A stretch of 24,490 nt of DNA from a virus, in the IMG/VR virus record IMGVR_UViG_3300036945_000367, positions 1-24,490 of that record; one strand, written 5' to 3'. This document shows, one piece after another, positions 3,500-24,490 of the stretch. The notes below the pieces were generated by a model that was not told the origin of the DNA, did no database searches, and worked only from the letters and a program-made list of their open reading frames with translations. The position numbers and the translations under genes are program-made. Within the stretch, counting starts at the first letter, position 1. Each line of letters starts with the position of its first letter.

Positions 3500-6530
<3,031 letters not shown>

Positions 6531-6558
<28 letters not shown>

Positions 6559-6947: not shown

Positions 6948-6949
6948 TT

Positions 6950-7598: not shown

Positions 7599-7961
7599 TT
7601 GAGCTCCCCCGCAGGTCTTTACAATATAATCGCCGATCAAGGTTCGACACTTTCGCGCGTGATTTATTACAAAGATCCAGCTAAAAAGCCTATTAAGTTC
7701 AACGGATACACCGCCCGAATGCAAGTCAGACCCTCTGTCGAGAGTTCTAACATTATTTTGGAACTAACAACCGAAAATGGCGGAATAGAGCTCGGAGCTA
7801 CGGACGGAAGCATAGCCCTGTACGCGGAAGATAGCACAATGATAGCTATCCCCGAGGGTATCTACGTATACGACTTAGAGCTTATTGCCCCATCAGCAGA
7901 GCTTTTTGTCTACAAAATTCTTCAAGGCAATTTCGCAGTTAGGTCGGAGGTGACCAGATAG
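7599..7961 (+). CDS. Phage tail-associated beta-rich protein
   Basis: This 120-residue protein contains IADQGSTLSRVIYYKD, FNGYTARMQVRP, GGIELGATDGSI, YVYDLELIAPSA and ILQGNFAVRSEVTR. This series is like small proteins near tail or baseplate genes in many phages (QGxTxxRxxxxKD, GYTARMQIR, YDLEL, GxxxxxxEVTR). They are probably all-beta virion parts; the exact place is not known. The start appears to be TTG at 7599, because an ATG at 7589 is in another frame and closes at once; a binding site is not obvious. The stop overlaps the GTG of the next gene by one base (TAGTG). It is the first gene after the promoter-like box. Confidence 0.65.
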   Translation: MSSPAGLYNIIADQGSTLSRVIYYKDPAKKPIKFNGYTARMQVRPSVESSNIILELTTENGGIELGATDGSIALYAEDSTMIAIPEGIYVYDLELIAPSAELFVYKILQGNFAVRSEVTR

Positions 7962-8767
7962 TGGCTGGTTATACAGTTAGCTCAGTTACATCCGGTAAAT
8001 ACGCCAGACAGGTTTCAGTAGCAGCTTCAGGTCCTCAAGGTGCCGCTGGACCGACTGGAGCTACCGGTCCCGCTGGAGCCGCTGGAGCCGCTGGTGGGCT
8101 CTCTGCTAGATATAAATTTCTAAACAACTACAACGCAGCTAACCCTGGTGGCGGATACTTTGCTTTTAACAGCTCAACTTTTATGTCAGCAACAGAGCTG
8201 TATGTGTCGCAAAACGATATGGCTACTGACTCTCAGGCAGCGCTTTTAAGTGCAGTCATCCAGTCTACTAACGGCTATAAGTCTGTCATCACTGTGCAAA
8301 AAGTTAGTGATCCGAGAAAAACGGCACGATTCTATGTAACTGGCGGAACTGACAATTCCGGCTGGTGGGATTTCCAAATAGAGTACATTGGCGGATCCAT
8401 ACTAAGTTGGACCTACAACGAACAAGTAGAGATTCTTGTCGCCCCGATTGGAGACGCTGGAACTGTTGGAGCTACCGGCCCCACTGGTGCAGCTGGCCAA
8501 GGTGTGCCACTTGGAGGTGCCACGGGTCAAATTCTTAGGAAGACTTCGGATGCAAGCTACGCAACCGAATGGGTAGACCCAGAAGCAGTTCAAGACGTCT
8601 CGTTAAATGAATTAACAGACGTTAATTTAAGTTCATTAACCAACGGTCAAGTCCTTGTTTACGATCAAGACACTAACGCTTGGATTCCAACCTCTCCCGA
8701 AAATCTCCCTCAATCGGCCGGATATCTCTCTGGTACACTTGAGGGAGGATCCGCATCTACTTTTTAA
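7961..8767 (+). CDS. Collagen-like phage tail protein
   Basis: The 268-residue protein has two collagen-like Gly-X-Y tracts. Residues 24-46 hold seven triplets (GPQ GAA GPT GAT GPA GAA GAA) and residues 164-181 hold GDAGTVGATGPTGAAGQG. Between them lies a beta-rich domain of about 115 residues. The C-terminal part (PLGGATGQILRKTS, EWVDP) and NELTDVNLSSLTNGQVLVYD are segments common in tail fibre proteins. Such tracts form trimeric triple helices and are frequent in phage fibres. The protein ends GGSASTF, similar to the end of the 11610 protein. It is the only clear collagen-like substrate candidate for the many hydroxylase-like enzymes downstream, but the prolines sit at the X and not the Y position. 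Confidence 0.8.
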   Translation: MAGYTVSSVTSGKYARQVSVAASGPQGAAGPTGATGPAGAAGAAGGLSARYKFLNNYNAANPGGGYFAFNSSTFMSATELYVSQNDMATDSQAALLSAVIQSTNGYKSVITVQKVSDPRKTARFYVTGGTDNSGWWDFQIEYIGGSILSWTYNEQVEILVAPIGDAGTVGATGPTGAAGQGVPLGGATGQILRKTSDASYATEWVDPEAVQDVSLNELTDVNLSSLTNGQVLVYDQDTNAWIPTSPENLPQSAGYLSGTLEGGSASTF

Positions 8768-8777
8768 GGGTTAAATA

Positions 8778-9152
8778 ATGGCCATACAGATACAACTTCG
8801 AAATGATACTGCCGCCAACTGGACCTCAGCTAACCCGACGCTAGCTCGCGGCGAAGTGGGCGTTGAGATAGATACCAACAAGATGAAAATTGGTACAGGA
8901 TCTACCACTTGGGCTAATCTTCCATATACGGGCGTAGACTCCGAAGAATTGATTCCGCTTGTCTCCTACACACACAATCAGGGACAAACCAGCTCTACAT
9001 GGGAAATAGAGCACAACCTAGGCTTCTACCCGTCAGTCAACGTCTTTATGTCGTCTGGTGATGTTGTAGAGGGAGCAATCGAGCACCAAGACGTAAACAA
9101 TCTAACGATCACCTTCTCGGTAGCCATTTCGGGTACCGCTTACCTCTCCTAA
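8778..9152 (+). CDS. Tail protein with Mtd-like N-terminal domain
   Basis: Residues 1-52 (QIQLRNDTAANWTSANP, RGEVGVEIDTNKMKIG, TTWANLPY) match the short domain found at the N-terminus of the major tropism determinant of Bordetella phage and of many tail fibres. The rest (residues 60-124) contains WEIEHNLGFYPSVNVF, then SSGDVVEGAIEH and NNLTITFSVAISGTAYL, a beta domain common in small phage structural proteins. The same N-terminal domain begins the 794-residue fibre at 11859. The ATG follows TAAGGGTTAAATA at a gap of 10 bases from the previous stop. It is likely a small virion protein at the tail tip or fibre base. Confidence 0.8.
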   Translation: MAIQIQLRNDTAANWTSANPTLARGEVGVEIDTNKMKIGTGSTTWANLPYTGVDSEELIPLVSYTHNQGQTSSTWEIEHNLGFYPSVNVFMSSGDVVEGAIEHQDVNNLTITFSVAISGTAYLS

Positions 9153-9167
9153 GGAAAATAAGAAAAA

Positions 9168-11570: not shown

Positions 11571-11593
11571 TAGTAAAATAAGTAAGACTCAAG

Positions 11594-11693
11594 AAAGAGG
11601 TCGCCCCAGATGGCAAGCAAAAAGTTCCTAACGCCAATTAACATTGTGCAAGGCGCTACGTTCCCAGTAGATGCTGATCAAGGCGACCTCTTT
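11594..11693 (+). promoter_or_regulatory. 12-bp inverted repeat covering the ribosome binding site of the 11610 gene
   Basis: AAAGAGGTCGCC (11594-11605) is the exact reverse complement of GGCGACCTCTTT (11682-11693), with 76 bases between. The left arm contains the only ribosome binding site (AAAGAGG) of the gene starting at 11610; the right arm lies in its coding region and is followed by more T residues. Pairing would hide the site or act as a long-loop attenuator. Arms this long are unlikely by chance at this distance. Confidence 0.5.
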
Positions 11694-11840
11694 TTTAGGT
11701 CTGACATAGGTTCCATGTACACCTACGATGGCACCGGTTGGATTTCTATGACTGGCAGTGACATCACAAACGTGGACGGCGGAGACGCCTCAAGCTCATA
11801 CAACATCAACTACGACGGTGGCGGACCGTCCTCTTTCTAG
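11610..11840 (+). CDS. Short tail-fibre-associated protein, 76 residues
   Basis: This small protein starts KKFLTPINIVQGATFP and has QGDLFFRSDIGSMYTYDGTG, which parallels the N-terminus of the 800-residue fibre (FLTNLNL, GQIYYNTVDGQLNVYTG). It thus looks like a stand-alone copy of the fibre attachment segment. The C-terminal part holds two similar units, VDGGDASSSY and YDGGGPSSF, and the end resembles GGSASTF of the collagen-like protein. A role in fibre attachment or assembly is inferred. The ATG is preceded by AAAGAGG, which lies in the arm of a long inverted repeat. The gap to the fibre gene is 39 bases with a weak -10 candidate (TAAAAT at 11574), so it may be separately controlled. Confidence 0.7.
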   Translation: MASKKFLTPINIVQGATFPVDADQGDLFFRSDIGSMYTYDGTGWISMTGSDITNVDGGDASSSYNINYDGGGPSSF

Positions 11841-11858
11841 GAATAGGGAAATAAGACA

Positions 11859-14243
11859 ATGGCAGTCAGAATTCAATTTAGACGCGGTACCGCCGCTGAA
11901 TGGGCCTCGGCCAATCCAATGCTAGCCGCTGGTGAGCTCGGTTACGAGACAGATACCGCTCAGATGAAGATTGGTAACGGTTCTCTTACCTGGAGCGCCT
12001 TACCATACAGCGCAGTAAACGAGGCATACGTAGATAACGCGATTGCTAACGTAGTAGGTTTGGCCCCGGAAACACTGGACACCCTAAACGAGCTAGCTGC
12101 CGCCATGGGAGACAACCCAAGTTTCATCTCTGACATAGAGGACGACATTGACAGCGCCAGAGCTTATGCTACTGGTTACACTGATAATGCAATAGCTAAC
12201 CTTATAGCTTCCGCTCCTGCAGCTTTAGATACACTAAACGAACTAGCTGACGCTCTAGGGTCCGACGCGAACTTCAGTACTACAGTCTCAACAGCTCTAT
12301 CAGAGAGACTTCAATTTGTAGCTGACAACGTAGCCAACTACGAAGCTAATAACCCAATCATCGATGCAAATATTCTAGCTATCGAAGTAGACAGCGGAAA
12401 CATTAAGATTGGCGATGGCGTAAACGCTTGGAACACTCTAGTTTACGTGAACCAGGCATTCTTCTCTGGCATGTTAGATACTCACATCTCTGACACAACC
12501 CAGATTCACGGAATAGCTAACACTGCAGAATTAGTGACCTCTACTGAACTGACAGAGGCCCTAGGTGACTACACAACAACCGACGACCTTGCTAACGGAT
12601 ACGTAAGCACCGGTGAGATAGCAAACTACGCTCTGTTAACTGCCCTAGATTCATATGCCACTAACACCGCCCTAGCCCTGAAAGCTCCACTAGCTAGCCC
12701 TTCTTTCACTGGTACGGTGTCGCTTCCTGCAAGCATTGAGATCAACAACATCAGCATTGGCAACACCACAGCAACAGAGATCTCATACCTTGCCAACGTG
12801 TCATCTGACGTACAAAGTCAAATTGACACTAAAGCCCCACTAAACTCTCCTTCATTTACCGGGACTGTCGAACTTCCGACGACAACCAGCATTGGAGACA
12901 TCACTTCTGCTGAATTGGAGCACCTGGATGGGGTAACCTCAGCTATCCAGCCTCAGCTTGACGGAAAACTTGCATCTTCGACCGCAGCCACCACCTACGC
13001 ACCACTAGCGGATGCAACTTTGACTGGTACCGTTTCTCTTCCAGCAACTACCTCTATTGGTGATGTTTCGGGCACAGAGATAGGTTATGTAAATGGCGTA
13101 ACCTCGGCTATTCAAACCCAACTAGATGCAAAGGCTCCCACAGAGAGCCCGACCTTCACAGGTAACGTTTCTGGTGTTACAAAAGCTCACGTAGGTCTCG
13201 GAAACGTGGACAACACCGCTGACGAAGACAAGCCAATCTCTGATGCAACTCAGACTGCATTGGATGCAAAGCTAGATCTTGCTGGCGGAACTCTTACTGG
13301 CCCATTGACCCTCTCGGGCGCACCAACCTCTGACCTACATGCAGCTACAAAGCTATATGTTGACGGCCTAGCAGCTGGAATTAACTTCCACCAGCCAGTG
13401 GTTGCCGCAACCGCTGGTAACCTAGCTGGTACATATGACAACGGAACCGCTGGCGTAGGTGCAACCCTTACCAAGGCATCGAACGGTGCAATCGGTACAA
13501 TTGACGGTGCATCGGTTTCTGTAGGTAACAGAATCCTTCTACGCGCACAGACTGACGCTAAAGAAAACGGCGTCTACGTGATTACTGCAGTTGGAAGCGC
13601 GAGCGCTCCATGGGTTATAACTCGTGCAGCAGACGCAGACAACAACCCAGCGGGCGAGTTGGCTAACGGAGACTTTGTATTCGTAACAAGCGGTTCAACC
13701 AACGGATCAAAGGGCTTCATCCTAAACACCACAGGCACAATCACAATCGGAACAACAGAAGTTGCTTACGCACAGTTCAACGCATCTGAAGCGGTTATTG
13801 CTGGAACAAACATCAGCAAGGTCGGCGAGACAATCTCGGTTGTATCAAACCCAACATTCGCAAATGTTGTGACAGTGAGCGCTGGGGTTAAGTTCTCTGA
13901 CAACACTATTCAGACATCTGCTGGTGTTCCGTCTTTGACTCAGTTTATCCAGAAGACATCAAGCTACACTCTTAATGACCTAACTCTGATTGATGAAGTG
14001 ATTGAGGTAGACAGCTCGTCTGCAACCACTATCACAATTCCAACTAACGCGACTCTAGCTTGGCCAGTAGGCGCGTCTGTGGACATCCTTCAGATAGGAA
14101 CCGGACAGGTGACAATTGCCGCTGCAGGTGGAGTTACCTTGAACTTTACGCCAGGAAACAAGCTCAGAACACGTTGGTCAAGCTGTACTATAATGAAACG
14201 TGGTACTGACAGCTGGATCCTATACGGCGATCTAACAGCATAA
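11859..14243 (+). CDS. Long tail fibre protein with Mtd-like N-terminus
   Basis: The 794-residue protein starts with an Mtd-like domain (RIQFRRGTAAEWASANP, GELGYETDTAQMKIG), with a degenerate second copy near residues 148-195 (RLQFVADNVANYEANNP, IKIGDGVNAWNTL). Two LDTLNELA units lie between. Residues about 275-430 contain three copies of a unit like APLxSPSFTGTVxLP, then SIGDxxxxEIxYLxGVxSxI and QxQLDxK. The fibre motif AHVGLGNVDNTADEDKPISD, LTGPLTLSG and ATKLYVD come next, followed by the globular domain shared with the 9168 fibre (VGNRILLRAQTDAKENGVY) and a C-terminal beta domain. The sequence shows a shaft with repeated knobs and a likely receptor-binding end. The ATG follows AATAGGGAAATAAG. 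Confidence 0.88.
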   Translation: MAVRIQFRRGTAAEWASANPMLAAGELGYETDTAQMKIGNGSLTWSALPYSAVNEAYVDNAIANVVGLAPETLDTLNELAAAMGDNPSFISDIEDDIDSARAYATGYTDNAIANLIASAPAALDTLNELADALGSDANFSTTVSTALSERLQFVADNVANYEANNPIIDANILAIEVDSGNIKIGDGVNAWNTLVYVNQAFFSGMLDTHISDTTQIHGIANTAELVTSTELTEALGDYTTTDDLANGYVSTGEIANYALLTALDSYATNTALALKAPLASPSFTGTVSLPASIEINNISIGNTTATEISYLANVSSDVQSQIDTKAPLNSPSFTGTVELPTTTSIGDITSAELEHLDGVTSAIQPQLDGKLASSTAATTYAPLADATLTGTVSLPATTSIGDVSGTEIGYVNGVTSAIQTQLDAKAPTESPTFTGNVSGVTKAHVGLGNVDNTADEDKPISDATQTALDAKLDLAGGTLTGPLTLSGAPTSDLHAATKLYVDGLAAGINFHQPVVAATAGNLAGTYDNGTAGVGATLTKASNGAIGTIDGASVSVGNRILLRAQTDAKENGVYVITAVGSASAPWVITRAADADNNPAGELANGDFVFVTSGSTNGSKGFILNTTGTITIGTTEVAYAQFNASEAVIAGTNISKVGETISVVSNPTFANVVTVSAGVKFSDNTIQTSAGVPSLTQFIQKTSSYTLNDLTLIDEVIEVDSSSATTITIPTNATLAWPVGASVDILQIGTGQVTIAAAGGVTLNFTPGNKLRTRWSSCTIMKRGTDSWILYGDLTA

Positions 14244-14260: not shown

Positions 14261-15595
14261 ATGGCAAAGAAAGAAGCAGGCGCAAAGTCCTCTCAGCAGA
14301 ATGACTTTTTGGCTCCGTTACCTGCAGAAAACGTCACAGCTACAGATGTTGGTACTAACAGACCATACAACAATGGAACGCTGACTGTTACTTGGACTAT
14401 AAACAGCCTATCTCCAGCTGCAACTACCTACACAATTAAAGACTCCAACAACAACCAACTAGGTACAGGCTCGCTACCGGCTCCAGTGAGCGGGACATAC
14501 TCCGTACAAGTTTCTGGATTGCTGTCAAACACCACATACACAGTGAACGTGACACTAACTAATGCGTCCGGTGACTCTGCTCCGTCTGCTGCAGCGCCAG
14601 TTTTAGTTACAACAGTCCCTCAGACTCCAGCTGCTCCAATAGCCAACACTACAGTTGCAGACCAAGACAGTGTAACTTGGGTTGCGCCAGCTAATGGTGG
14701 TAAGGCCATAACACTGTACGCATGGGCTTGTGATGACGGTAAACAGGACAGCACCGGACTAACCTCTATAACAGTGGCCCAGGAAGGTGTTGGTCCATCG
14801 ACTAACGCTTACAGAGTTAGGGCAATTAACGCCAACGGTACATCAGAGTTTTCAAATTTCTCGAACTCCGTAGACACTCTCCCTCCATTCTTCCCTCCAT
14901 TCTTCCCGCCGTTCTTCCCTCCATTCTTCCCTCCATTCTTCCCGCCGTTCTTCCCCCCATTCTTCCCACCGTTCTTCCCTCCATTCTTCCCTCCATTCTT
15001 CCCACCGTTCTTCCCACCGTTCTTCCCACCTAGATTCCCATTCTTCCCACCGTTCTTCCCACCGTTCTTCCCACCTAGATTCCCATTCTTCCCACCTATC
15101 TTCCCTGCGCACCGTTGTATTGCAGAGGGAACTTTGGTTGACACTCCTCGCGGTAAGATTCCGGTTGAGCAGCTACAAGCTGGCGACATGGTTCTGTCTG
15201 TCATAATTGACGAACTATCTGTCGAGGACAACACTCCAGGGGCATTCTCAATTGGTTCATCACTAACTCTGTCAGGTGCAAAGCCTGTAGAGACTCAGGT
15301 GACTGCGATCCTTGAGAGCATCAAGACTGCAATCGTCTACTTCAACGGTAACGAGTCAGCTAGATACTCTGCAGAGCAGCCACTGTTCGTAAAGGTCGGT
15401 GACTCATACGAAGTGAGACTAGCCGGTAAGCTGGCCGTAGGAGACTACCTAATCAAGGTGGACGAAGACGGATCATCTTCTGAAGAACTAATCACAGAAG
15501 TTACCACTCTAGACACCCCAACCAGGGTGTACCAGATATCCTGTGACCCATACCACTGGTTTATTGCTGGTGGATATCTATCCCACAATAAGTAA
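14261..15595 (+). CDS. Fibronectin-like, FFPP-repeat and Hint-domain tail protein
   Basis: This 444-residue protein has three parts. Residues about 18-205 form two fibronectin type III-like domains (LTVTWTI, TTYTVNVTLTNASG; SVTWVAPANGG, YRVRAINANG). Residues 208-282 are a Pro/Phe tract of FFPP units with two RFP interruptions. Residues 286-444 are a Hint domain, the fold of inteins and Hedgehog proteins: it starts with C286 (CIAEGTLVDTPRGKIPVEQL) and ends HWFIAGGYLSHNK with H442 and N443. Block B reads SAEQP (370-374), so the usual catalytic His is Gln. Only Lys follows the HN, so it is not a normal intein with a C-extein. It may cleave itself or attach the tail part to something, or it may be a dead domain. 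It is the last gene before a terminator. Confidence 0.82.
   Translation: MAKKEAGAKSSQQNDFLAPLPAENVTATDVGTNRPYNNGTLTVTWTINSLSPAATTYTIKDSNNNQLGTGSLPAPVSGTYSVQVSGLLSNTTYTVNVTLTNASGDSAPSAAAPVLVTTVPQTPAAPIANTTVADQDSVTWVAPANGGKAITLYAWACDDGKQDSTGLTSITVAQEGVGPSTNAYRVRAINANGTSEFSNFSNSVDTLPPFFPPFFPPFFPPFFPPFFPPFFPPFFPPFFPPFFPPFFPPFFPPFFPPRFPFFPPFFPPFFPPRFPFFPPIFPAHRCIAEGTLVDTPRGKIPVEQLQAGDMVLSVIIDELSVEDNTPGAFSIGSSLTLSGAKPVETQVTAILESIKTAIVYFNGNESARYSAEQPLFVKVGDSYEVRLAGKLAVGDYLIKVDEDGSSSEELITEVTTLDTPTRVYQISCDPYHWFIAGGYLSHNK
14882..15106 (+). repeat. 12-base tandem repeat coding for FFPP
   Basis: About 225 bases consist of units such as TTCTTCCCTCCA, TTCTTCCCGCCG and TTCTTCCCACCG. Each encodes Phe-Phe-Pro-Pro; two TAGATTCCCA-type units give RFP. 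Third codon positions vary between units (CCA, CCG), which suggests that the amino-acid pattern is under selection and not only recent slippage. The strong strand bias (almost no A or G) also gives long false open frames on the minus strand. Confidence 0.9.
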
Positions 15596-15609: not shown

Positions 15610-15640
15610 TAGCCGCCCCCAACCGGGCGGCTATTTTTTT
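15610..15640 (+). terminator. Rho-independent terminator of the tail module
   Basis: TAGCCGCCC (15610-15618) pairs with GGGCGGCTA (15625-15633) around loop CCAACC and is followed by seven T. It starts 14 bases after the stop of the Hint protein gene. A run of A before the stem could allow weaker function on the other strand, but no minus-strand gene ends here. Confidence 0.93.
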
Positions 15641-15702: not shown

Positions 15703-16437
15703 ATGAACCACTGGTTTACGAAAGATCGTTCAGAGACAGTCACAAACACAATGGGAGATAGAAAAATCCATAGCGGTATTTCTGTCATAAACCCAGCTAT
15801 GGGCATAAACATTTACAGGGGAGCCATATCTAAAGAAACTGGGCAAAAGCACATTAACACCTTGGAGTCGAACCTAAACGGACAGACTTCATTCTCGTGG
15901 GCAGGGGCCCAGGTAACAAACTCGGATGAAGTTGATTTAGAGGCTAGAAATGCAAAAGATTTTAAGTTTAATTCCAAGGGATTAGGACCTAGGAATGACG
16001 AAAATGGAAAACTTTACGACATGCACGAAGAAGTTTTTCAAGCAGTTCGCGCATGCGTGAATGATTATGGGGATTACTGGGGCGTAGGAATGAACTTCTA
16101 CGAAGCGTTTAATTTTGTTAAGTATGAAGGCACCGGGACTCACTTTAAGGTCCATGCGGACCATGGTCCAACCTACGTGTGTACTGTTTCAGTTGTTGTG
16201 TATTTAAATGACGACTATGAGGGCGGAGAAATTATTTTCCCTCGATTTAATCTGACTCACAAACCTCAAGCGGGTGACATTATTATTTTCCCGTCAACAT
16301 ATGTATACGAGCATTCATCTGAAGACATGATCTCTGGCACCAAGTACGCAGTTGTGATTATGACAGACTATAATGACAGAGACGAAGTAAACCACAGAGT
16401 GCCGCAAACAATCCAAGAATACGAACTTAAATACTAG
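15703..16437 (+). CDS. 2OG-Fe(II) oxygenase, prolyl-4-hydroxylase-like
   Basis: The first gene of the oxygenase run encodes 244 residues. The C-terminal catalytic domain has H151 and D153 (HAD), YLNDDYEGGEIIF, QAGDIIIFPS, the distal H204 (YEHSS) and K214 (GTKYAVV) as the 2-oxoglutarate ligand. Lys at that place is as in prolyl 4-hydroxylases. The enzyme class couples decarboxylation of 2-oxoglutarate to hydroxylation of a substrate. The N-terminal 110 residues have no recognised domain and are probably the substrate-facing part. The next protein is its closest relative in the window (HFKVHADHG versus HFQEHHDHG). The ATG follows AAAGGAAAAACT. The substrate is not evident from the sequence. Confidence 0.9.
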   Translation: MNHWFTKDRSETVTNTMGDRKIHSGISVINPAMGINIYRGAISKETGQKHINTLESNLNGQTSFSWAGAQVTNSDEVDLEARNAKDFKFNSKGLGPRNDENGKLYDMHEEVFQAVRACVNDYGDYWGVGMNFYEAFNFVKYEGTGTHFKVHADHGPTYVCTVSVVVYLNDDYEGGEIIFPRFNLTHKPQAGDIIIFPSTYVYEHSSEDMISGTKYAVVIMTDYNDRDEVNHRVPQTIQEYELKY

Positions 16438-16448
16438 ATCGAGGAACC

Positions 16449-17219
16449 GTGTCAGAAGAATCCCTAAAAACCTCAGAAGACTCTGCTGCAGAAGCAGAAA
16501 AGAAGAGTCAAGAGGAACAAAAAAATATTCAAAATCGACTAGCGAACTGGTACCAAGTAGACGAGGTCACATGGAGCTCCGCCGAGGAAGTGTCTCCCGG
16601 CAGCGGAATCTGGGTCTATCACGATGTTCTACCCAAAGAGATGAACATCATTCAAAGGATCGAAGAAGTCATCGACAGCCCAGATAATAATTATCACTAT
16701 CAAGAGGCAATGGTTGGGTATTCTATGAAGATCCCCGAGTACAGAGACTGCGTAGATTTTAAGTATAAGGAAAATGATTTTGATGACGATCAAACTGAGT
16801 GGGGCGATAAGCTAAGACAGCTAGCTAAAGATACTAAGTATCGTCAGCTACAAATTGTAAAAGACTATACAAGACGCTACAACGTAGGAGAGCTTCGCTA
16901 CTGGGAGGCAACTAACTACGTCCGTTATGGCGTAGGCCAGCACTTCCAAGAGCACCATGATCACGGCTACTCGTATAATTGCGTAGTATCTCTAGTCGCA
17001 TACCCGAATGATGACTACGAAGGCGGAGAGCTTTTCTTTAGGCTACAAAATATAAGCGCAAAAGCTCGCGCAGGAGATGTCTTTATTTTCCCGTCAAACT
17101 TTATGTACCCTCACCGCGCCATGCCTGTCAGATTTGGAACCAAGTACTCGATGGTTACCATGCTGGACTATTCGGATAAGTACCACAGTGCAGAATTCTT
17201 TAGGGACACAGACAGCTAA
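16449..17219 (+). CDS. 2OG-Fe(II) oxygenase, prolyl-4-hydroxylase-like
   Basis: The 256-residue protein has H169-x-D171 (EHHDHG), YPNDDYEGGELFF, RAGDVFIFPS, the distal H222 (YPHRA) and K232 (GTKYSMVT). Residues 1-30 are Glu/Lys/Ser-rich and low in complexity, perhaps a flexible leader. The next 120 residues are a variable N-terminal region. The start is a GTG at 16449 behind GAGGAACC. The stop overlaps the next ATG by one base (TAATG), so translation is coupled to the DUF6065-like gene. Similarity to the preceding protein around both metal motifs suggests an old tandem duplication. Confidence 0.9.
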   Translation: MSEESLKTSEDSAAEAEKKSQEEQKNIQNRLANWYQVDEVTWSSAEEVSPGSGIWVYHDVLPKEMNIIQRIEEVIDSPDNNYHYQEAMVGYSMKIPEYRDCVDFKYKENDFDDDQTEWGDKLRQLAKDTKYRQLQIVKDYTRRYNVGELRYWEATNYVRYGVGQHFQEHHDHGYSYNCVVSLVAYPNDDYEGGELFFRLQNISAKARAGDVFIFPSNFMYPHRAMPVRFGTKYSMVTMLDYSDKYHSAEFFRDTDS

Positions 17220-17965
17220 TGAAGCAAATTTCAGTACAAAAACTGTTTCCGCCCGGAGGGAATGCTGACATATATCAGCTGCCGGCACGTAGGCCATGGA
17301 TGGATGATACGGAAGATAAGCACGCATACATGTGCTTCCCTCTAAATATCACTAACCGCTTAGGTTGGGCAATATCGTTCCCTGAAGATATTAGATTCAT
17401 CTGGGATGGCATCACAGACACAACGCCAGATCACATCACGATACTTGAAGGTGAAAAATTTTTAAGTAGATCTAGAGGGAACGCTACCATTGGCTTTCTC
17501 ACTGGTTTGAAGTTTACAACCGATGAGAAAACAACAATGTTGGCAATGCCAGTGCCGAACTTATTTGTACGTGGCGCTCAGTGCTACACCACCCTAATGA
17601 GCACCTCCTTCTACTTTCATATGCTTCCAGTTGCTTGGAGGCTTACCGAGCCTAACGTAGAGATTTACATTCCTGCAGGCACCCCCGTGGCGACTGTTAT
17701 TCCAATATCACTAACTGACCTAGAAGAGGATTACGAGTTGACTGTAAATGAAACGCCGGCATCTTCCGAGTACTGGGAAGAAGTGACTAAGTATGGGGAT
17801 GCTAACGAAATAAAGAATGGCGTAGGAGACTGGTCAAAAATGTATAGAGAAGCAGTTGACTATACCGGCGCCTCTGTCGGCTCCCACGAGACAAAATCTA
17901 TAAAGCTAAAAACTGTTACATGCCCATTTACCGGGGACTCCTATGAGGTAGAGGACGTGGAGTAG
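17219..17965 (+). CDS. DUF6065-like protein
   Basis: The 248-residue protein begins with a short lead and then ARRPWMDDTEDKHAYMCFPL, NITNRLGWAISFPEDI and FIWDG. It later has FHMLPVAWRL and IPAGTPVATVIPI. This pattern (RPWMDxTxxxxAYRCLPL, N..GW) matches what I recall of DUF6065, an uncharacterised bacterial and phage family. It shows no HxD iron motif and is not an oxygenase of the neighbouring kind. It lies in a coupled run of oxygenase genes, so a linked job, such as the same modification pathway or substrate handling, is inferred. The next gene encodes a protein with the same late motif (LPAGTPYAQIIPF), so the pair seem to be distant paralogues. Confidence 0.6.
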   Translation: MKQISVQKLFPPGGNADIYQLPARRPWMDDTEDKHAYMCFPLNITNRLGWAISFPEDIRFIWDGITDTTPDHITILEGEKFLSRSRGNATIGFLTGLKFTTDEKTTMLAMPVPNLFVRGAQCYTTLMSTSFYFHMLPVAWRLTEPNVEIYIPAGTPVATVIPISLTDLEEDYELTVNETPASSEYWEEVTKYGDANEIKNGVGDWSKMYREAVDYTGASVGSHETKSIKLKTVTCPFTGDSYEVEDVE

Positions 17966-18706
17966 GTGGACACTAAAAAAATTAAGTTTGTAGTCAACAG
18001 ACCGTGGCTAAATAGAGACAGTGATTCTACCCCCAAGCCGATAATTAAAACCATTCCCGACTGGTATAGAAACGGGGACAGGTTTGCCAAACACCCGATG
18101 ACAGGGGAGTATTGGAAAGACCCGCAAAATGGCGGAAAAATCCCTACATGGAAGTCATGCCCGTCTGTCTACGACATCATGGGGTCCGGGTATGCGTACA
18201 GAACCCCTTGCGATATCGAGTTTAAGGAAAACTCTTACGGTCAAATAGAGGCAAAAGTCTTAGACGAAAAGAATAAAGATTTTATACAGGTCAGAATGCC
18301 TATGCCAGGCTTTAAAGCACCGATGGGTTACCACGAAGTTCACTTCGCATGGTGGGCAGACTGGGCAGTAGAGCTGCCGGCGGGCTATAGCGCACTGTAC
18401 TCGCAGCCTTTCAATAGATTTGAGCTACCTTTTATAACTACAAGCGGCATCATCGATAACGATAAGGTTCACTTGCCTGGAACAATGCCGTTCTTTGTGG
18501 CTAAAGGGTTTCAGGGGATACTTCCTGCAGGCACGCCATATGCTCAAATTATCCCGTTCAAGCGGGAGAACTGGGAGTCAGAAATTGTAGACTCTATCGG
18601 CTATGAAGACATGCTCAAAAAGAACATGGAAAATAGCGATAAATATAGGGTTCCAGATGGTGGCGTATACCAGAGAGATGTCTGGGAGAGACGCAAGTAT
18701 GAGTAA
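17966..18706 (+). CDS. DUF6065-like paralogue, function unknown
   Basis: The 246-residue protein starts with KKIKFVVNRPWLNRD and contains IKTIPDWYR near residue 28, YHEVHFAWWADWAVELPAGY, SQPFNRFELPF, and GILPAGTPYAQIIPFKRENW. The last motif and the general order (N-terminal PW segment, Trp-rich centre, PAGTP-ATVIP-like strand) parallel the preceding DUF6065-like protein. Proteins of this appearance occur in environmental phages beside hydroxylase genes as far as I recall, without known function. It starts with GTG directly after the previous stop codon, with no gap. No metal-binding motif or membrane segment is visible. The call as a paralogue is inferred from short motifs only. Confidence 0.5.
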   Translation: MDTKKIKFVVNRPWLNRDSDSTPKPIIKTIPDWYRNGDRFAKHPMTGEYWKDPQNGGKIPTWKSCPSVYDIMGSGYAYRTPCDIEFKENSYGQIEAKVLDEKNKDFIQVRMPMPGFKAPMGYHEVHFAWWADWAVELPAGYSALYSQPFNRFELPFITTSGIIDNDKVHLPGTMPFFVAKGFQGILPAGTPYAQIIPFKRENWESEIVDSIGYEDMLKKNMENSDKYRVPDGGVYQRDVWERRKYE

Positions 18707-18720
18707 GGTAGGATAATCTA

Positions 18721-19389
18721 GTGAATAAAGAATATGCAAATGACGACATAACCCCCTACCAGTCGATAATTCCATCAGGTTTTTTCGGCGACTCCGTGGA
18801 CAATATTGTCGCAATAGAGAACTTTATGACAGATGAAGAGCTAACTTATCTGAATAATTTTGCAAAAAATAACCAGCTATGGGACGTCACAGAGACCCAC
18901 TACAGTGAAGATGGCACTGTAATCTACGATTCAAGCTACTGGGACCACCGAGTAGCTACAGCTCCTCTCTTAAAAGAAGCTGATCCAAAAGTTGTAGAGC
19001 TGATTTCAAACATGCAAGCTAGACTAAAAGAAAAAGTGGATCAGTTCTTTAACGTGGACGCCCACCCAACTAGTCCAGCGATTGTCCGATGGCTCCCAGG
19101 TCAGCGCCAGCAGCCACACGCGGATAAAGAGCTACACGAAGGCGAAGGCAGAGGAAAGCCAAACGACTTCCCTTACTACGATATTTCAGGACTTTTCTAC
19201 TTAAATGATGAGTATGAGGGCGGAGAGCTTTACTTCCCTAACCAGGGGATTCAGTTTAAGCCAAAGGCTGGAGCCGCATATTTCTTCCCGGGTGACATGA
19301 ATTATATCCACGGTGTGACAGAAATCAAGTCCGGGATTAGGTATGTTTGCCCATTTTTCTGGACTGTCAAATCCAACCAAATTAAATAA
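18721..19389 (+). CDS. 2OG-Fe(II) oxygenase, prolyl-hydroxylase-like
   Basis: The 222-residue protein has H133-A-D135, FYLNDEYEGGELYF, KPKAGAAYFFPG, the distal H197 (YIHGV) and R207 (IRYVCPFFW) for 2-oxoglutarate. The Arg-FFW ending is like the PKHD-type group. Before the catalytic domain lies IVAIENFMTDEELTYLNNFA, the usual opening helix of this superfamily (ENFLTxEECxxL). The start is GTG at 18721, after GGTAGGATAATCTA. A 40-base gap follows the gene, the longest in the run, with an AT-rich stretch and AAGAGAGTAAGGG. Confidence 0.9.
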   Translation: MNKEYANDDITPYQSIIPSGFFGDSVDNIVAIENFMTDEELTYLNNFAKNNQLWDVTETHYSEDGTVIYDSSYWDHRVATAPLLKEADPKVVELISNMQARLKEKVDQFFNVDAHPTSPAIVRWLPGQRQQPHADKELHEGEGRGKPNDFPYYDISGLFYLNDEYEGGELYFPNQGIQFKPKAGAAYFFPGDMNYIHGVTEIKSGIRYVCPFFWTVKSNQIK

Positions 19390-19429
19390 CATATAGAATT
19401 AGATCAGACAAAGAGAGTAAGGGTTTAAA

Positions 19430-20209
19430 TTGCATTTAGCGAAAAAGCTACACGAAGAAGTTTTCCTATACGAAGATGTTTTTGCTGATCCAGCTGGACT
19501 GATAAGCCTAATCGAAGAGCTGGACGAAGACGAGACTACCCACTCTGTCATCCCAGAATGGGGATTTTGGTTCTCAAATAGCCGAGATGGTCACAGCTTT
19601 GGTAGCAAGAAGGACTTTGCTCCGGAAAGACTCTCAGAGCTAGAGTCATCACGCAAGGCTGATGTAGAGAAGGTAGTTAGCACTATCCAAACAGCAGTCA
19701 GTGATGTGGCGCACGCTTACTATCGCGACCGCGGCCTTGAGGGCGAGCCAAACATGTCACCATTTGCTGGTGTTATGAAGTACCGCCCAGGCTGCGAGAT
19801 GGGTGCACACTTCGATGCTCAGGCTGGTGACAGAACCCTCAAGTACTCTATTGTCCTTTATTTGAACGAGGACTACGAGGGTGGAGAGATTTCTTTTATT
19901 GTCCGCCCTTACGACTTAAGAAATCCAAAAAATTTCCACCTTCAGCCAATCCCGGACGCTGATGACGAAAGAAATGCAGATCTTGTTGACTTTACCCTAA
20001 AACCTAAAGCCGCATCTGCTCTAATCTTCCCATCGACACATCCTTTTAAGCACCAGGTTCACATCGTTAAGAGTGGAGATAAGTACATCTTCCCTGGTTT
20101 TGTTTTCCAAGAAGACTTTAATCCAGAGAACGAAGACTCAAGACGCGAATATAACGCTGGATCTTTATTCGAGACACCAGAAGAAGGAAAGTACTTCGAC
20201 GAAGAGTAA
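19430..20209 (+). CDS. 2OG-Fe(II) oxygenase, prolyl-4-hydroxylase-like
   Basis: The 259-residue protein has H127-F-D129, LYLNEDYEGGEISF, LKPKAASALIFPS, the distal H208 (FKHQVH) and K218 (GDKYIFPGFVF). An insertion of about 35 residues between the EGGE strand and the LKPKA strand (YDLRNPKNFHL and DADDERNADL) marks it off from its neighbours and probably forms a loop over the active site. The start is TTG at 19430; the frame has no better start, and GAGAGTAAGGG lies upstream at rather long distance. The acidic C-terminal tail (EDSRREYNAGSLF, EEGKYFDEE) is not part of the catalytic fold. Confidence 0.88.
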   Translation: MHLAKKLHEEVFLYEDVFADPAGLISLIEELDEDETTHSVIPEWGFWFSNSRDGHSFGSKKDFAPERLSELESSRKADVEKVVSTIQTAVSDVAHAYYRDRGLEGEPNMSPFAGVMKYRPGCEMGAHFDAQAGDRTLKYSIVLYLNEDYEGGEISFIVRPYDLRNPKNFHLQPIPDADDERNADLVDFTLKPKAASALIFPSTHPFKHQVHIVKSGDKYIFPGFVFQEDFNPENEDSRREYNAGSLFETPEEGKYFDEE

Positions 20210-20215
20210 GTCTTT

Positions 20216-20833
20216 ATGTACGAAGTATTATCCCCTAAGGTTCTTTATTTTCCAAAATTTTTAGTAGATCACGAAAGATTTCTAGAGATCGTAGAGAAGA
20301 CTTCCACTTGGTCAGAGTGGAAGCCTAGTGATTCCAGCGCAGCCGAGTTCTCCTACGGATCACTAAAAACTTTTGGTACGCAGGAGTATAAAAATACCTT
20401 AGAGCCGAACAGTAAAAGCCAGATTAAATACATTGTCAACACAATAAAAAAAGTTAATCTAGCCTGCGGATACGAATATCTAAAGAGTCAAAATGCATCC
20501 GACTCAGAGTTGCTCAATTTGAAAAGATCTGTACTTTTAGATGACATAACTATAGGTATTAAGAAATACAGGGAAAACGGCCCAGCACTCGGGCCACACC
20601 CGGATACTGACCTAGAGAATCCCCGAGATGAGTTCAGTATAACTTTCTACCCTAATGATAATTACGATGGCGGCGAGTTGAACTTCCCTGAGATTGATCT
20701 AAAAATAAAGCCAAAAGCCGGCAGTGTGGTAGTATATCCATCGAAGCACATACATGAATCTCTACCAGTATTTTCCGGCGAGAAGTATGTAACTAATTAT
20801 GTATATCTAGCAGCGGAGAAATTGTGGAATTAG
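20216..20833 (+). CDS. 2OG-Fe(II) oxygenase, prolyl-4-hydroxylase-like
   Basis: The 205-residue protein has H128-P-D130, FYPNDNYDGGELNF, KPKAGSVVVYPS, the distal H180 (HIHES) and K190 (GEKYVTNYVY). The N-terminus VLYFPKFLVDHERFLEIVE is the typical first strand and helix and closely parallels the next protein (VVYFPGIVDNVDEIIEAIE), so the two are likely tandem paralogues. The ATG lies six bases after the previous stop with GAAGAGTAAG upstream. The end overlaps the GTG of the next gene by 10 bases. It is among the smallest of the set and is nearly only the catalytic core. Confidence 0.9.
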   Translation: MYEVLSPKVLYFPKFLVDHERFLEIVEKTSTWSEWKPSDSSAAEFSYGSLKTFGTQEYKNTLEPNSKSQIKYIVNTIKKVNLACGYEYLKSQNASDSELLNLKRSVLLDDITIGIKKYRENGPALGPHPDTDLENPRDEFSITFYPNDNYDGGELNFPEIDLKIKPKAGSVVVYPSKHIHESLPVFSGEKYVTNYVYLAAEKLWN

Positions 20834-21480
20834 AGTACAAGATACCGTATGAAAATGTAGTGTATTTTCCGGGCATAGTCGACAACGTTGACGAGATTAT
20901 CGAGGCAATAGAGACCACGAACAGCATTGCAATATCCCCCTGGGAAGTCTGGTACGCAAGCAGCGACACCTCTGGATATGCTTACGGCGAAGTTAAGTCT
21001 ATGAGCAAGCACCTACTCAGACAAGAGTCGGACCCAGCTATCGTCGAGAAATCTGAATATATAATTTCTACCCTGGTAGACGCGATGTCGATCGCAGCTA
21101 AGAAGTATTCTGAACTATACAATATTGACGATGCGTCACTAGATTACGCACTGCATGCGCTAAACATGGAAGGCACGAAGTACGGCATAAACAAGTACTA
21201 CGAACGCATGTACATGGGGCCGCACGTTGATTGGAATGAGCAAAACTCAGACATCACTTACACAATCGTGGTCTATCTAAATGATAATTATGAAGGTGGA
21301 GAACTCTACTTTGTAGATCCCGATATCGACATAAAAATAAAGCCAGAAAAGGGAAGTATCGTGATGTTCCCATCCACCTTGCCGTATCTACACCAATCTT
21401 GCGACATCATTAACGGCAGAAAGATGCTCATAACGCATCACTGGAAAAATGATTCGCTAGTAAAGAGAGACGAGTTTTAA
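20824..21480 (+). CDS. 2OG-Fe(II) oxygenase, prolyl-hydroxylase-like
   Basis: The 218-residue protein has H134-V-D136, VYLNDNYEGGELYF, IKPEKGSIVMFPS, the distal H190 (YLHQS) and R199 in GRKMLITHHW. K200 lies next to R199, so either could bind 2-oxoglutarate. The start is GTG at 20824, inside the end of the previous gene. GCGGAGAA lies just upstream. The stop overlaps the next ATG by one base (TAATG). The centre (residues 60-105) has a helix rich in Ala/Ser (STLVDAMSIAAKKYSELYN), seen also in the 19430 protein (STIQTAVSDVAHAYYRDRG). Confidence 0.9.
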   Translation: MELEYKIPYENVVYFPGIVDNVDEIIEAIETTNSIAISPWEVWYASSDTSGYAYGEVKSMSKHLLRQESDPAIVEKSEYIISTLVDAMSIAAKKYSELYNIDDASLDYALHALNMEGTKYGINKYYERMYMGPHVDWNEQNSDITYTIVVYLNDNYEGGELYFVDPDIDIKIKPEKGSIVMFPSTLPYLHQSCDIINGRKMLITHHWKNDSLVKRDEF

Positions 21481-22313
21481 TGGAAATCCCGGTACTTAAC
21501 TTCAGCAGCAAGCCAGAGCTATACTCCGAGCTCGAATCAGTAAAGGATAAGTATGTCTCTAACGGGATCGTAGTGCTTAGAGGTCTACACTTTACTGAAG
21601 CAGAGCAGGGCGAATTGACCCTATCTCTTGGGGACTTGATTGGGTGGTTCCCCAACCACAGTAGCAGCGATATCGGAAGAAAGTACACAGAGAGCCACTC
21701 CGGTAATCAGAATGTTGCTGGATCAAAAGGTGATCAGGTTATCTTAGATTGGCACATAGAGCACGTAGACTACGACCAGCAGTGCCCATTAGTGGCAGGG
21801 CTTTGGAATATGCAGCATTTTAATTGCGCTCCAGGGACTGGGTTAACCTACTTTGTCGACACCACAGAAGTTTTTAAGCTCCTAACAGAAGAAGAGCAGA
21901 GCTTCCTATCTTCCAGTGAGATTTCATGGGTAGACGCATACGGATTTGGCCCCCACCAAGGAGTCGCAGTGGTGCCTCACTGGTTGAACGGAAGCCCAAC
22001 CATACGTATAGAAATAACAAAGCATGTGAAGACAGAGCTAGTTTCGGTGCATGGAGAAGTGCCAACTGACCTTCAAACCGCTGAGTTCAAACGTATCTAC
22101 AAAAAGATCATTGATCTTATCGAGAATAATACAGATATAAGAATGACGCACCAGTGGGAACACGGAGACGTCGTAATTCCAGACTTATTCAAACTCGCGC
22201 ACGCAGTTACTGGTGGATTTGATCCTAAAGATCGAACATTTACTGGGCACTGGTTATTCTCTAAAGATCCAACCATACTTACAGACGAGGAGCTCCCTTA
22301 TGCCTGGAGATAG
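21480..22313 (+). CDS. TauD/clavaminate-synthase-like 2OG-Fe(II) oxygenase
   Basis: This 277-residue enzyme belongs to another branch of the 2OG/Fe(II) oxygenases. It opens with VSNGIVVLRGL, the usual TauD N-terminal strand. The metal triad would be H92-x-E94 in WHIEHVDY and the distal H241 in FKLAHAVTGG, with R252 in DRTFTGHW for 2-oxoglutarate. HxE in place of HxD is as in clavaminate synthase. APGTGLTYFVDT is the conserved strand after the first motif. Members act on small molecules such as taurine, amino acids or sugar-linked amines rather than on proteins, which suggests that this run of genes is not only about protein hydroxylation. Its start overlaps the previous stop by one base, and its end overlaps the next gene by 14 bases. 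Confidence 0.85.
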   Translation: MEIPVLNFSSKPELYSELESVKDKYVSNGIVVLRGLHFTEAEQGELTLSLGDLIGWFPNHSSSDIGRKYTESHSGNQNVAGSKGDQVILDWHIEHVDYDQQCPLVAGLWNMQHFNCAPGTGLTYFVDTTEVFKLLTEEEQSFLSSSEISWVDAYGFGPHQGVAVVPHWLNGSPTIRIEITKHVKTELVSVHGEVPTDLQTAEFKRIYKKIIDLIENNTDIRMTHQWEHGDVVIPDLFKLAHAVTGGFDPKDRTFTGHWLFSKDPTILTDEELPYAWR

Positions 22314-23181
22314 TGAAGTAGAGATCATCGGAGACTTTACTGTAAAGAAGTTATACCCCAAAATCTGGGTATTTAGTAAAGCAATCCAGAACCCGGATAA
22401 GTTGATTGACTACTATGTTAATGACCCAATCAATGTAAACAGATGGGTGCCTTGGTACACATTCGGGGATATGATCAGTGACTTTGGGCTGGGCTTTGGG
22501 AATATAGACCACTTTCCCAGTAAAGAAGAGTGGACTTCAAATTTTGCTGAGTGCGATGACTTGTATAAATTAGAGCTAGCTCACACATTTTATGATGCAT
22601 CAGCTCTATATGTTGAAAGTACTAAAGCTACATTGCCGAATTGGGAGTCACCTAACTGGGGGATTGCTAGGTATTTCCCGGATGTAGAGGATTTTTCAGG
22701 TGGAAGAACTATGCAATACCACACTGATTATCAGCAGGATAGAAAAGAGTATCCCGGCGCAAAAAACATGATTACTGCGGTCGGCTACCCTAATGACGAT
22801 TACAAAGGTGGGGAAATTTCATTTCGCATCGTAAAAGAGGGGACAAAAGATGAAGTAGAAAGAGAAATTATCTACAAGCCAGAAGCTGGCGATTTAATCA
22901 TCTTTCCTTCGGTGTTTCCTTACTATCACGGCGTCCTAAACGTAAAGAAAAATCCTAAGTACATCATAAGATTTTATTGGAACTCTGTAGAAGAGGCCAC
23001 TGAAGACTACGAGTACTTCTCTAATAAATATGGAGATAACTGGGATCAACTAGAGCTAGTCAGACGCAAGAGAGACAAAGCTATGGTGGAGGACCCCGTG
23101 TTGAGGCTTCGGTTGTCCATGCGGGAGTACTATGAAATGCTAGAGGCTGGCACTCTAGATGAATACTTTGAAGAGGTATAA
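22300..23181 (+). CDS. 2OG-Fe(II) oxygenase, prolyl-4-hydroxylase-like, with C-terminal extension
   Basis: Counted from the ATG at 22300 the protein has 293 residues. The motifs are H141-T-D143, YPNDDYKGGEISF, KPEAGDLIIFPS, the distal H210 (YYHGV) and K220 (NPKYIIRFYW). The frame is open back to 22213, but GAGGAG eight bases before 22300 and the fit of the N-terminus (VKKLYPKIWVFSKAIQNP) to this family favour the later start. About 70 residues after the catalytic core are charged and helical (YEYFSNKYGDNWDQLELVRR, RLRLSMREYYEMLEAG) and have no counterpart in most neighbours. The gene overlaps the TauD-like gene by 14 bases. Confidence 0.9.
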   Translation: MPGDSEVEIIGDFTVKKLYPKIWVFSKAIQNPDKLIDYYVNDPINVNRWVPWYTFGDMISDFGLGFGNIDHFPSKEEWTSNFAECDDLYKLELAHTFYDASALYVESTKATLPNWESPNWGIARYFPDVEDFSGGRTMQYHTDYQQDRKEYPGAKNMITAVGYPNDDYKGGEISFRIVKEGTKDEVEREIIYKPEAGDLIIFPSVFPYYHGVLNVKKNPKYIIRFYWNSVEEATEDYEYFSNKYGDNWDQLELVRRKRDKAMVEDPVLRLRLSMREYYEMLEAGTLDEYFEEV

Positions 23182-23183
23182 GT

Positions 23184-23645
23184 ATGTCTGATCTAAATAT
23201 GACAAACCAGACGATGGTAGACGAGTTTAAGGCTAGAGCAGCCGCCGGTAGAGGCGACTCTTATATGTTGACTATATCCAGAGATGGCGAGTCACCAGTA
23301 CGGTCCATATACTTCTATGACAACGCGATAGACGCCACTACTGGATACACAGCATATACAGACTGGGGGTTTGCTAAGGACTTCCTAACCGTAGAACTCT
23401 ATGAACCAACCGGTAGAGTGCACAGTAAAGTTCTTAGACGCCCGCGAGGCGGCGAGTGTGTTTTTGAAAGAGCACAGTATTACAAGGTAGCTGAAATACT
23501 AAACGCCACTAAGCCAAAAATTGATGAAGAAGTGTTCAACTATCTGACCTATGAGTTTGCTAAGCTATTCTCAAAGGACAACCAAAGATTTCAAGTAGAT
23601 CGCTTTTTCACAGATCTAGGGTATACAGGAGAAATTCATGACTAA
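23184..23645 (+). CDS. Unknown protein in the oxygenase operon
   Basis: I do not recognise this 153-residue protein. It starts MSDLNMTNQTMVDEFKARAA and contains YMLTISRDGESPVRSIYFYD, DWGFAKDFLTVELYEPTGRV and KVLRRPRGGECVFERAQYYK, with a helical C-terminal third. There are no HxD, P-loop, zinc or membrane features and only one cysteine. It lies two bases after the preceding stop and overlaps the following oxygenase start by 8 bases, so it is certainly co-expressed with both. The tight coupling suggests a role in the same process, for example as a partner or substrate-binding subunit, but nothing in the sequence proves this. Confidence 0.75.
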   Translation: MSDLNMTNQTMVDEFKARAAAGRGDSYMLTISRDGESPVRSIYFYDNAIDATTGYTAYTDWGFAKDFLTVELYEPTGRVHSKVLRRPRGGECVFERAQYYKVAEILNATKPKIDEEVFNYLTYEFAKLFSKDNQRFQVDRFFTDLGYTGEIHD

Positions 23646-24375
23646 CATCGAGACCACACCAACAGAGTTTGGCGATAAAGGCTACTTAAAAGATGACATT
23701 ATCTTTTACGATAACTTTCTCACTGAAGAAGAGGCAGAAAAGATCATAGCTTTCTTCGAGGACCCAGAGCAGCCATGGAGCATGTCTGCATTCTTCGAGT
23801 CATACGGCATGAGTATTATGCCCCAGGACCCTTTGCTAGAGAAGTATGGGCTATCGATTGACTACCTAGGGACCTTGGCAGACCGCATGCACAAGGCGGT
23901 AGAGGATGCTCACCTGCGTCCAGTAAAGTCAGTATCTTCTCACGCCCAGAAGTGGAATGTTGGCGCATTTGCCCCTTTCCACTCGGACAACACCGACATG
24001 GAGGGGAACTGGTCGGCATGGGAGAAGAGTAAGCTTGTCTGCCTCCTCTACATCAACGATGATTATGAAGGCGGCGAGTTAAACTTCAGAGACCACCCTA
24101 TCAAGCTAAAGCCAAAGGCCAGGCAGCTAATCACGTTCCCTGGTGGCATCAACAATGTCCACGAAGTTACAGTAGTCGAAGGGTCAACCCGTCATACAAT
24201 TGGCGCTTTCTGGGACTACGCCGAATCCACATACTCCGAAGAACGCATAAAGGAGTGGGAGGACGAGATTTCCAAGGTCCGTGAAGAACAGAAGGTTATG
24301 CAGGACGAGTGGAAAGACCAGCTAGATAAGGGTGTACACCCCCTTACAGAAGGCGGAAGCCAGGGCGGCTACTAA
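23638..24375 (+). CDS. 2OG-Fe(II) oxygenase, prolyl-hydroxylase-like
   Basis: The last gene of the run encodes 245 residues. It shows DIIFYDNFLTEEEAEKIIAF (opening strand and helix), H115-S-D117, LYINDDYEGGELNF, KLKPKARQLITFPGG, the distal H175 (NVHEV) and R185 (TRHTIGAFWD). A C-terminal charged helix (residues about 200-232, EERIKEWEDEISKVREEQKV) may form a coiled coil, and the tail ends in Gly/Ser (TEGGSQGGY). The ATG follows AGGAGAAATTC inside the previous gene. No clear terminator follows before the promoter-like box at 24393, so transcripts may continue. Confidence 0.9.
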   Translation: MTNIETTPTEFGDKGYLKDDIIFYDNFLTEEEAEKIIAFFEDPEQPWSMSAFFESYGMSIMPQDPLLEKYGLSIDYLGTLADRMHKAVEDAHLRPVKSVSSHAQKWNVGAFAPFHSDNTDMEGNWSAWEKSKLVCLLYINDDYEGGELNFRDHPIKLKPKARQLITFPGGINNVHEVTVVEGSTRHTIGAFWDYAESTYSEERIKEWEDEISKVREEQKVMQDEWKDQLDKGVHPLTEGGSQGGY

Positions 24376-24439: not shown

Positions 24440-24490
24440 ATGGGTTATCTCCGCGGCAATATGCACGATCTGATTACGGACCAAGGATCT
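24440..24490 (+). CDS. Start of an unidentified gene, cut by the right edge
   Basis: An ATG preceded by TAAGGACTCGCA (AAGGA at good spacing) opens 17 codons, MGYLRGNMHDLITDQGS, to the end of the window. It stands 27 bases after the promoter-like box. QGS resembles the DQGSTLSR stretch of the 7599 protein, but this is too short to name a family. Confidence 0.6.
   Translation, partial: MGYLRGNMHDLITDQGS

Follow-up and report, generated by a model that had tools for sequence, protein, structure and literature searches.

We analysed a 24,490-base record of an uncultured aquatic phage (IMG/VR record IMGVR_UViG_3300036945_000367; the window below is this whole stretch, and the record may be a fragment) that carries a compact block of 2-oxoglutarate (2OG)/Fe(II) oxygenase genes at 15703-24375. 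On the evidence of sequence comparison, this block probably encodes a phage system for hydroxylation, and in some cases also glycosylation, of FFPP/YFPP repeats in the phage's own tail-region proteins. In the mechanism that we propose, diverged prolyl-hydroxylase-like enzymes encoded in one tight gene cluster would hydroxylate the FFPP/YFPP/FFP repeats of the protein encoded just upstream, similar repeats elsewhere in the same genome would also be hydroxylated, and separate enzyme copies would serve separate repeat positions or registers. In some relatives, a glycosyltransferase of the hydroxyproline N-acetylglucosamine (GlcNAc) transferase family could then add a sugar. On the virion, the modification would render the Phe/Pro rod, otherwise very hydrophobic, soluble, stiff or adhesive.

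The oxygenase block is paired with an FFPP-repeat gene

Two scans of viral contigs, with the block genes D2 and Ox4 as seeds (gene names are given in Table 1), gathered approximately 150 loci. An FFPP-type repeat gene was found upstream of Ox1, the first oxygenase gene of the block, wherever a block locus includes 2,718 bp or more of upstream sequence (70/70, and 51/51 when counted by distinct Ox1), a limit that was fixed after seeing that every locus without the repeat gene was cut by the contig end. We also performed the reverse scan, in which viral contigs were searched only with DNA coding FFPPFFPPFF, and an in-frame open reading frame (ORF) together with 2.5 kb of downstream sequence was required. 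Of 72 such loci, 59 had a same-strand gene resembling prolyl 4-hydroxylase (P4H) no more than 2.5 kb downstream, and in 29 of these it was within 200 bp; a control pattern gave 0/66 (Fisher 1e-26). Among contigs of at least 20 kb, the P4H-like family PF13640 was matched in 38/40 repeat contigs versus 2/36 controls, and no FFPP repeat was found in the control contigs. Because the loci are related and the controls are not habitat-matched, the P values of this association are descriptive only.

The repeat near a P4H-like gene is carried by varied protein architectures, including collar/Hint fibres of 839 and 971 amino acids with a single oxygenase gene 6 bp downstream (L244, L271), PTPTP-rich proteins (L229, L248) and short PASTA-like proteins. 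The presence of the repeat in different protein contexts, each with a hydroxylase gene nearby, counts against pure common descent as the source of the pairing. In the window, the candidate substrate displays an fn3 domain (Pfam E 6.3e-8) and a C-terminal match to Hint_2 (E 8e-6; 26.7 bits, below the cut-off of 28.4). Relatives of this gene keep the fn3 domain and the repeat, and their C-terminus has been exchanged for Hint, Cys-rich, acidic or short tails (e.g. L153, L160, L244, L271). As read from the sequence, the Hint-like domain of the window retains the Cys (RCIAEGT) and HN-K, and its block-B His is replaced (SAEQPLF); owing to this missing His, autoprocessing of the window copy is doubtful.

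Outside viral contigs, the repeat pattern gave 28 matches in a collection of 84,980 genomes, mostly single and with no oxygenase nearby. Four contigs of metagenome-assembled genomes (L288, L294, L303, L305) do encode true repeat proteins; P4H-like genes lie close by in three of the four, and these contigs may represent phage or prophage sequence binned with bacteria. No isolate with the repeat was obtained by tblastn (in one search the Hint part alone matched), a weak negative given that the low-complexity filter hides the repeat, and our search of the open-access literature returned nothing on FFPP repeats with phage hydroxylases. Separately, we noted FFPP segments in Ig-like, fn3-like or multi-segment proteins without a nearby oxygenase (L169, L171, L249, L257); the L171 contig has six oxygenases elsewhere, and the L169 contig (36.8 kb) has none.

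The prolyl-hydroxylase-like enzymes of the block are intact and diverged

A preliminary description of the window, made from its letters alone, had listed eight P4H-like genes and one TauD-like gene in the block, with intact HxD/E...H...K/R motifs, and a tenth oxygenase at position 158. Pfam recovered all ten above the curated cut-offs (34.6-52.6 bits for the eight P4H-like ORFs of the block and 38.7 bits for the separate Ox0, against a PF13640 cut-off of 27). Alignment to Ox2 located the H, D, distal H and K/R in 9/9 PF13640 copies, so that the metal sites are competent by sequence. In the TauD-like protein, HIE occupies residues 92-94, and a plausible distal H and R could be picked out by eye, without a reference alignment. 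The same description had seen a tightly coupled run of oxygenases; the coupling is borne out by intergenic gaps of -14 to +40 nucleotides, but three genes of the block (D1, D2 and U1) are non-oxygenase by profile. By comparison, 120 control viral loci (1.03 Mb) contained 0 such oxygenase genes.

A P4H-type double-stranded beta-helix fold is present in the AlphaFold model of Ox2, which has a predicted local distance difference test (pLDDT) score of 92.4. All 50 PDB matches listed by Foldseek for this model are prolyl hydroxylases (TMt 0.58-0.71), and they include algal, hypoxia-inducible factor (HIF), bacterial and collagen enzymes and that of Paramecium bursaria chlorella virus 1 (PBCV-1). A sequence profile of the block enzymes finds collagen P4Hs, P3H1, the lysyl hydroxylase LH3 and the PKHD-type PiuC in the PDB. 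Proline is therefore the likeliest target residue, with lysine or another residue possible, one copy having been modelled.

Pairwise identity among the PF13640 copies of the window is only 18-32%, whereas orthologues of these copies in other phages reach up to about 95%. In the phylogenetic tree, Ox1 to Ox8 each cluster with counterparts from other phages, Ox1, Ox2 and Ox3 form one group each across phages (support 91-100 depending on the group), and Ox0 is a long branch without placement. The grouping of Ox1 to Ox3 across phages indicates that the array is old and not freshly duplicated. We therefore rejected recent tandem amplification, given the low identity within the window and the grouping with counterparts elsewhere, and agree with the earlier view that the copies are non-identical: they are old, non-redundant paralogues. 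Younger duplications are present in some relatives, in the form of Ox7- and Ox8-like copies (L021, L030).

The block is conserved as a unit and resides among fibre genes

More than 100 IMG/VR contigs contain Ox1-Ox2-D1-D2-Ox3 plus a variable array, and the gene maps share one order: fibre genes, proline-rich protein, Ox1, Ox2, D1, D2, Ox3 and variable oxygenases. The block is thus conserved as a unit across many phages and is not a set of scattered, unrelated insertions. TauD and U1 are present in only part of the related loci, and in a distant clade D2 is placed before Ox2 and no collagen-like fibre adjoins on the right. Intact blocks mostly contain 4-12 oxygenases, with a minimum of 2 (L072), and whole records contain up to 15. 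In two relatives, a further gene stands between the repeat gene and Ox1 (L021:5703-6494 and L039:2120-2713, the latter matching phrog_2954); HxD and a distal H can be recognised by eye in both proteins, which may belong to a more distant oxygenase family.

The preliminary description had suggested oxidation of a virion protein, a glycan or a modified base. Gene context favours the first, with the FFPP-repeat protein as the candidate; a glycan comes in only indirectly, through a glycosyltransferase family (PF11397) found in some relatives, and nothing supports a modified base. DNA-base modification was accordingly rejected, the block and the neighbours examined giving no hint of it.

The usual reading of such enzymes in cyanophages is that they reprogramme host metabolism or modify host proteins (EF-Tu or ribosomal proteins, for instance, or 2-oxoglutarate levels). 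This interpretation has been given for S-SCSM1, a cyanophage with 24 2OG oxygenase genes (PMC9602691). The PF13640/phrog_61 enzymes of cyanophages such as S-SCSM1 are of the same family as those of the window, occur in many copies and are in some cases encoded beside tail-fibre genes (PMC9602691); their genes are scattered over the genome, whereas the window copies form one block. The Foldseek matches listed for Ox2 include a bacterial P4H whose structure was determined with EF-Tu (4iw3, 5v7y). However, a host role would not lead one to expect a position among fibre genes or a constant pairing with a repeat protein, and eight paralogues exceed the need of a metabolic switch. We consider a host role improbable here. 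More improbable still is a biosynthesis cluster that oxidises a secreted small molecule or peptide, a scheme that would suit the large number of arrayed oxygenases, the Hint-like domain and the proteins without assigned function, but neither the block nor the neighbours examined yielded a recognisable scaffold-forming enzyme.

Collagen-like (Gly-X-Y) tail fibres provide another potential substrate, to be modified in the manner of classical P4H or lysyl hydroxylase, with the FFPP repeat a mere neighbour. Large collagen-like fibres follow the block in the clade of the window (23/58 loci with room); in L010, a 95% relative, Ox8 is followed by a gene like 7599-7961 (124 amino acids) and then by a collagen-like fibre of 1040 amino acids (PF01391 E 1.6e-79). 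Collagen hydroxylases are among the solved enzymes most similar in sequence, and animal collagen P4H and LH3/PLOD are related enzymes. Other clades, by contrast, keep Ox1 to Ox3, D1, D2 and the FFPP gene without an adjoining collagen-like gene. The phage repeats also differ from animal collagen in having hardly any Pro at the Y position (57 of about 5,540), where Thr, Gln and Ala prevail and Lys is not one of the most frequent residues, Pro being common at X. We consider a collagen-like main substrate unlikely, and the FFPP repeat is retained as the favoured candidate.

Tyrosine in the repeat and a possible accessory glycosyltransferase

Tyr-containing repeats (YFPP) are found mainly in phages with at least two Ox8-like copies (median Tyr fraction 0.24 vs 0), and Tyr content is correlated with the number of Ox8-like copies in independent contrasts on a D2+Ox2 tree (r 0.59), a link that speaks for the proposed system and that we regard as a lead. 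Oxygenase number is weakly related to repeat length (contrasts r 0.32, p 0.02). In another reading, a division of labour, FFPP and collagen-like fibres would both be substrates: the core Ox1 to Ox3 would act on FFPP, some enzymes of the variable array would act on other fibres or non-proline residues, and TauD would have a further target. The core is indeed constant and the array variable in both number and type, and TauD was found only where the repeat is almost without Tyr; the contrasts nevertheless rest on 55 loci, nothing ties an enzyme to a residue, and we consider such a division unlikely.

A PF11397 gene resides between the repeat gene and Ox1 in some relatives, for example L021 (E 9.4e-23), and L155 carries another on the opposite strand (E 8.5e-34). 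In total, the family was matched in 6/50 contigs of these phages versus 0/41 controls. We take PF11397 to be the family of the enzyme that places GlcNAc on the hydroxyproline of Skp1, and its distribution is suggestive of an accessory rather than a core part.

Comparison with known systems and weight of the evidence

The PBCV-1 prolyl 4-hydroxylase vCPH (PDB 5C5T) resembles Ox2 in fold and sequence, but it is one enzyme of a eukaryotic virus, whereas the phage of the window has eight copies tied to a repeat gene; we know of no fixed partner gene for the PBCV-1 enzyme. The best Foldseek match of Ox2 among those listed (E 2.5e-10) is the algal Cr-P4H-1 of Chlamydomonas (PDB 2JIG, 3GZE), a eukaryotic enzyme of hydroxyproline-rich glycoproteins that was solved with a (Ser-Pro)5 peptide and has 14-15% identity to Ox2. 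In the Dictyostelium Skp1 pathway, the prolyl hydroxylase PhyA is followed by the hydroxyproline glycosyltransferase Gnt1 (PMC3515798). Relatives of the window phage that carry PF11397 beside hydroxylases recall this pathway, which differs in serving oxygen sensing via one proline of Skp1, and the window and most related contigs are without PF11397. Virus-encoded protein hydroxylation is a known kind of process, and there is a fair chance that the block represents a new type of phage fibre maturation.

Several points weigh against hydroxylation of the repeat by the block. Many of the associated loci come from related phages, so that raw P values overstate independence, and the control contigs were unmatched for habitat or host. 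A strong, terminator-like hairpin stands between the repeat gene and the block; judging by its sequence, it is probably a bidirectional terminator that would split transcription of the two. No isolate with the repeat-hydroxylase pair turned up in the phage collection, and PF11397 was unmatched in the 24.5-kb window as well as in most contigs of these phages. The Tyr/Ox8 link was tested on the data in which it had first been noticed, and the comparison of independent sister pairs (5:0, p 0.06) falls short of significance. The PBCV-1 enzyme is active, yet hydroxyproline has been searched for in the virion proteins without success (PMC7019647). Finally, the FFPP repeat is absent from the five cyanophages tested, though P4H-like genes are present, which means that other substrates exist.

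P4H-like and other 2OG oxygenases are common among the so-called auxiliary metabolic genes of aquatic phages and are usually read as altering host metabolism, and the use that viruses make of them has been described as not investigated or cryptic (PMC9301287, PMC9602691). Constant pairing with a proline-rich gene of the tail region offers a concrete, testable substrate and would shift many such genes from metabolism to virion maturation, the block then being a multi-enzyme hydroxylation cassette for a structural protein in bacterial viruses. Such a cassette could be a source of hydroxyproline-rich biomaterials, and the trait could affect host binding by these phages. More tentatively, and with rather less confidence than in the repeat as substrate, we suggest that the fibre is of a new class, in which a polyproline-aromatic (FFPP/YFPP) rod is matured by its own cassette of several hydroxylating enzymes (in some phages with glycosylation as well), the enzyme set being matched to the repeat sequence. 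The class would extend over several tail-protein architectures that are unrelated to each other, in aquatic phages of which many show signs of actinobacterial hosts. Among bacterial viruses, it would be the equivalent of hydroxyproline-rich glycoproteins or mussel-type adhesives.

Other genes of the block, flanking genes and host

Table 1 Features of the window in and around the oxygenase block
Position	Strand	Feature	Basis
158..742	+	Ox0, separate P4H-like oxygenase outside the block	PF13640 38.7 bits; H115 D117 H170 R179
7599..14243	+	Upstream tail-fibre gene cluster	Pfam/PHROGs; short Gly-X-Y runs in 7961-8767; Mtd_N domains in 8778-9152 and 11859-14243
14261..15595	+	Candidate substrate, 444 amino acids: fn3-type N-terminus, (FFPP)n repeat, C-terminal Hint-like domain	Pfam
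14882..15103	+	Repeat tract, 74 amino acids (36 Pro, 35 Phe), PPFFPPFF...	Tandem repeat of period 12
15610..15633	.	Hairpin flanked on each side by T-runs, 9-bp stem, 7 G-C pairs	Hairpin computed on - strand; + strand T-run read from sequence
15703..16437	+	Ox1, P4H-like 2OG/Fe(II) oxygenase (core)	PF13640 42.7 bits; H151 D153 H204 K214
16449..17219	+	Ox2, P4H-like oxygenase (core), modelled	PF13640 47.9 bits; H169 D171 H222 K232
17219..17965	+	D1, DUF6065 protein (core)	PF19541 E 2.8e-24
17966..18706	+	D2, phrog_7084 protein (core), beta-rich, weakly dUTPase-like	phrog_7084 E 2.8e-32
18721..19389	+	Ox3, P4H-like oxygenase (core)	PF13640 36.7 bits; H133 D135 H197 R207
19430..20209	+	Ox4, P4H-like oxygenase (variable array)	PF13640 42.1 bits; H127 D129 H208 K218
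20216..20833	+	Ox5, P4H-like oxygenase (variable array)	PF13640 41.9 bits; H128 D130 H180 K190
20824..21480	+	Ox6, P4H-like oxygenase (variable array)	PF13640 52.6 bits; H134 D136 H190 K200
21480..22313	+	TauD-like 2OG/Fe(II) oxygenase (variable array)	PF02668 74.8 bits (cut-off 27), E 1.4e-20; HIE 92-94
22300..23181	+	Ox7, P4H-like oxygenase (variable array)	PF13640 37.2 bits; H141 D143 H210 K220
23184..23645	+	U1, 153-amino-acid protein, no recognised family	Homologues in related loci
23638..24375	+	Ox8, P4H-like oxygenase (right end of block)	PF13640 34.6 bits; H115 D117 H175 R185
24440..24490	+	Start of next structural gene, like 7599-7961, cut by contig end	MGYLRGNMHDLITDQGS read from sequence

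U1 gave no Pfam or PHROG match and is often kept adjoining Ox8 in the near clade. D1 bears a distant resemblance to D2 (hhalign probability 83%, E 8.5e-6). The AlphaFold model of D2 (pLDDT 93.1) has a dUTPase as its best PDB match in Foldseek (E 6.8e-4, with a TMq of only 0.24). D1 and D2 as extra oxygenases were rejected on the D2 model, which has no hydroxylase among the matches listed and is weakly dUTPase-like. By sequence, neither D1, D2 nor the glycosyltransferase has a convincing PDB relative. Homologues of D2 are also encoded beside baseplate/tail genes in Hafunaviridae haloviruses, with no oxygenase annotated within about 9 kb.

With regard to the host, WhiB was matched above the Pfam cut-off in 16/23 tested contigs of these phages and was recognised by eye in the window; the WhiB genes indicate actinobacterial hosts, and the WhiB/FmdB/Nrd set of the window fits this. 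According to the ORF list, the - strand of the window encodes a WhiB-like protein and an FmdB-like zinc ribbon at 1524-1850 and 1854-2039, respectively, and an NrdA/NrdB/NrdI/glutaredoxin-like set at 3500-7168.

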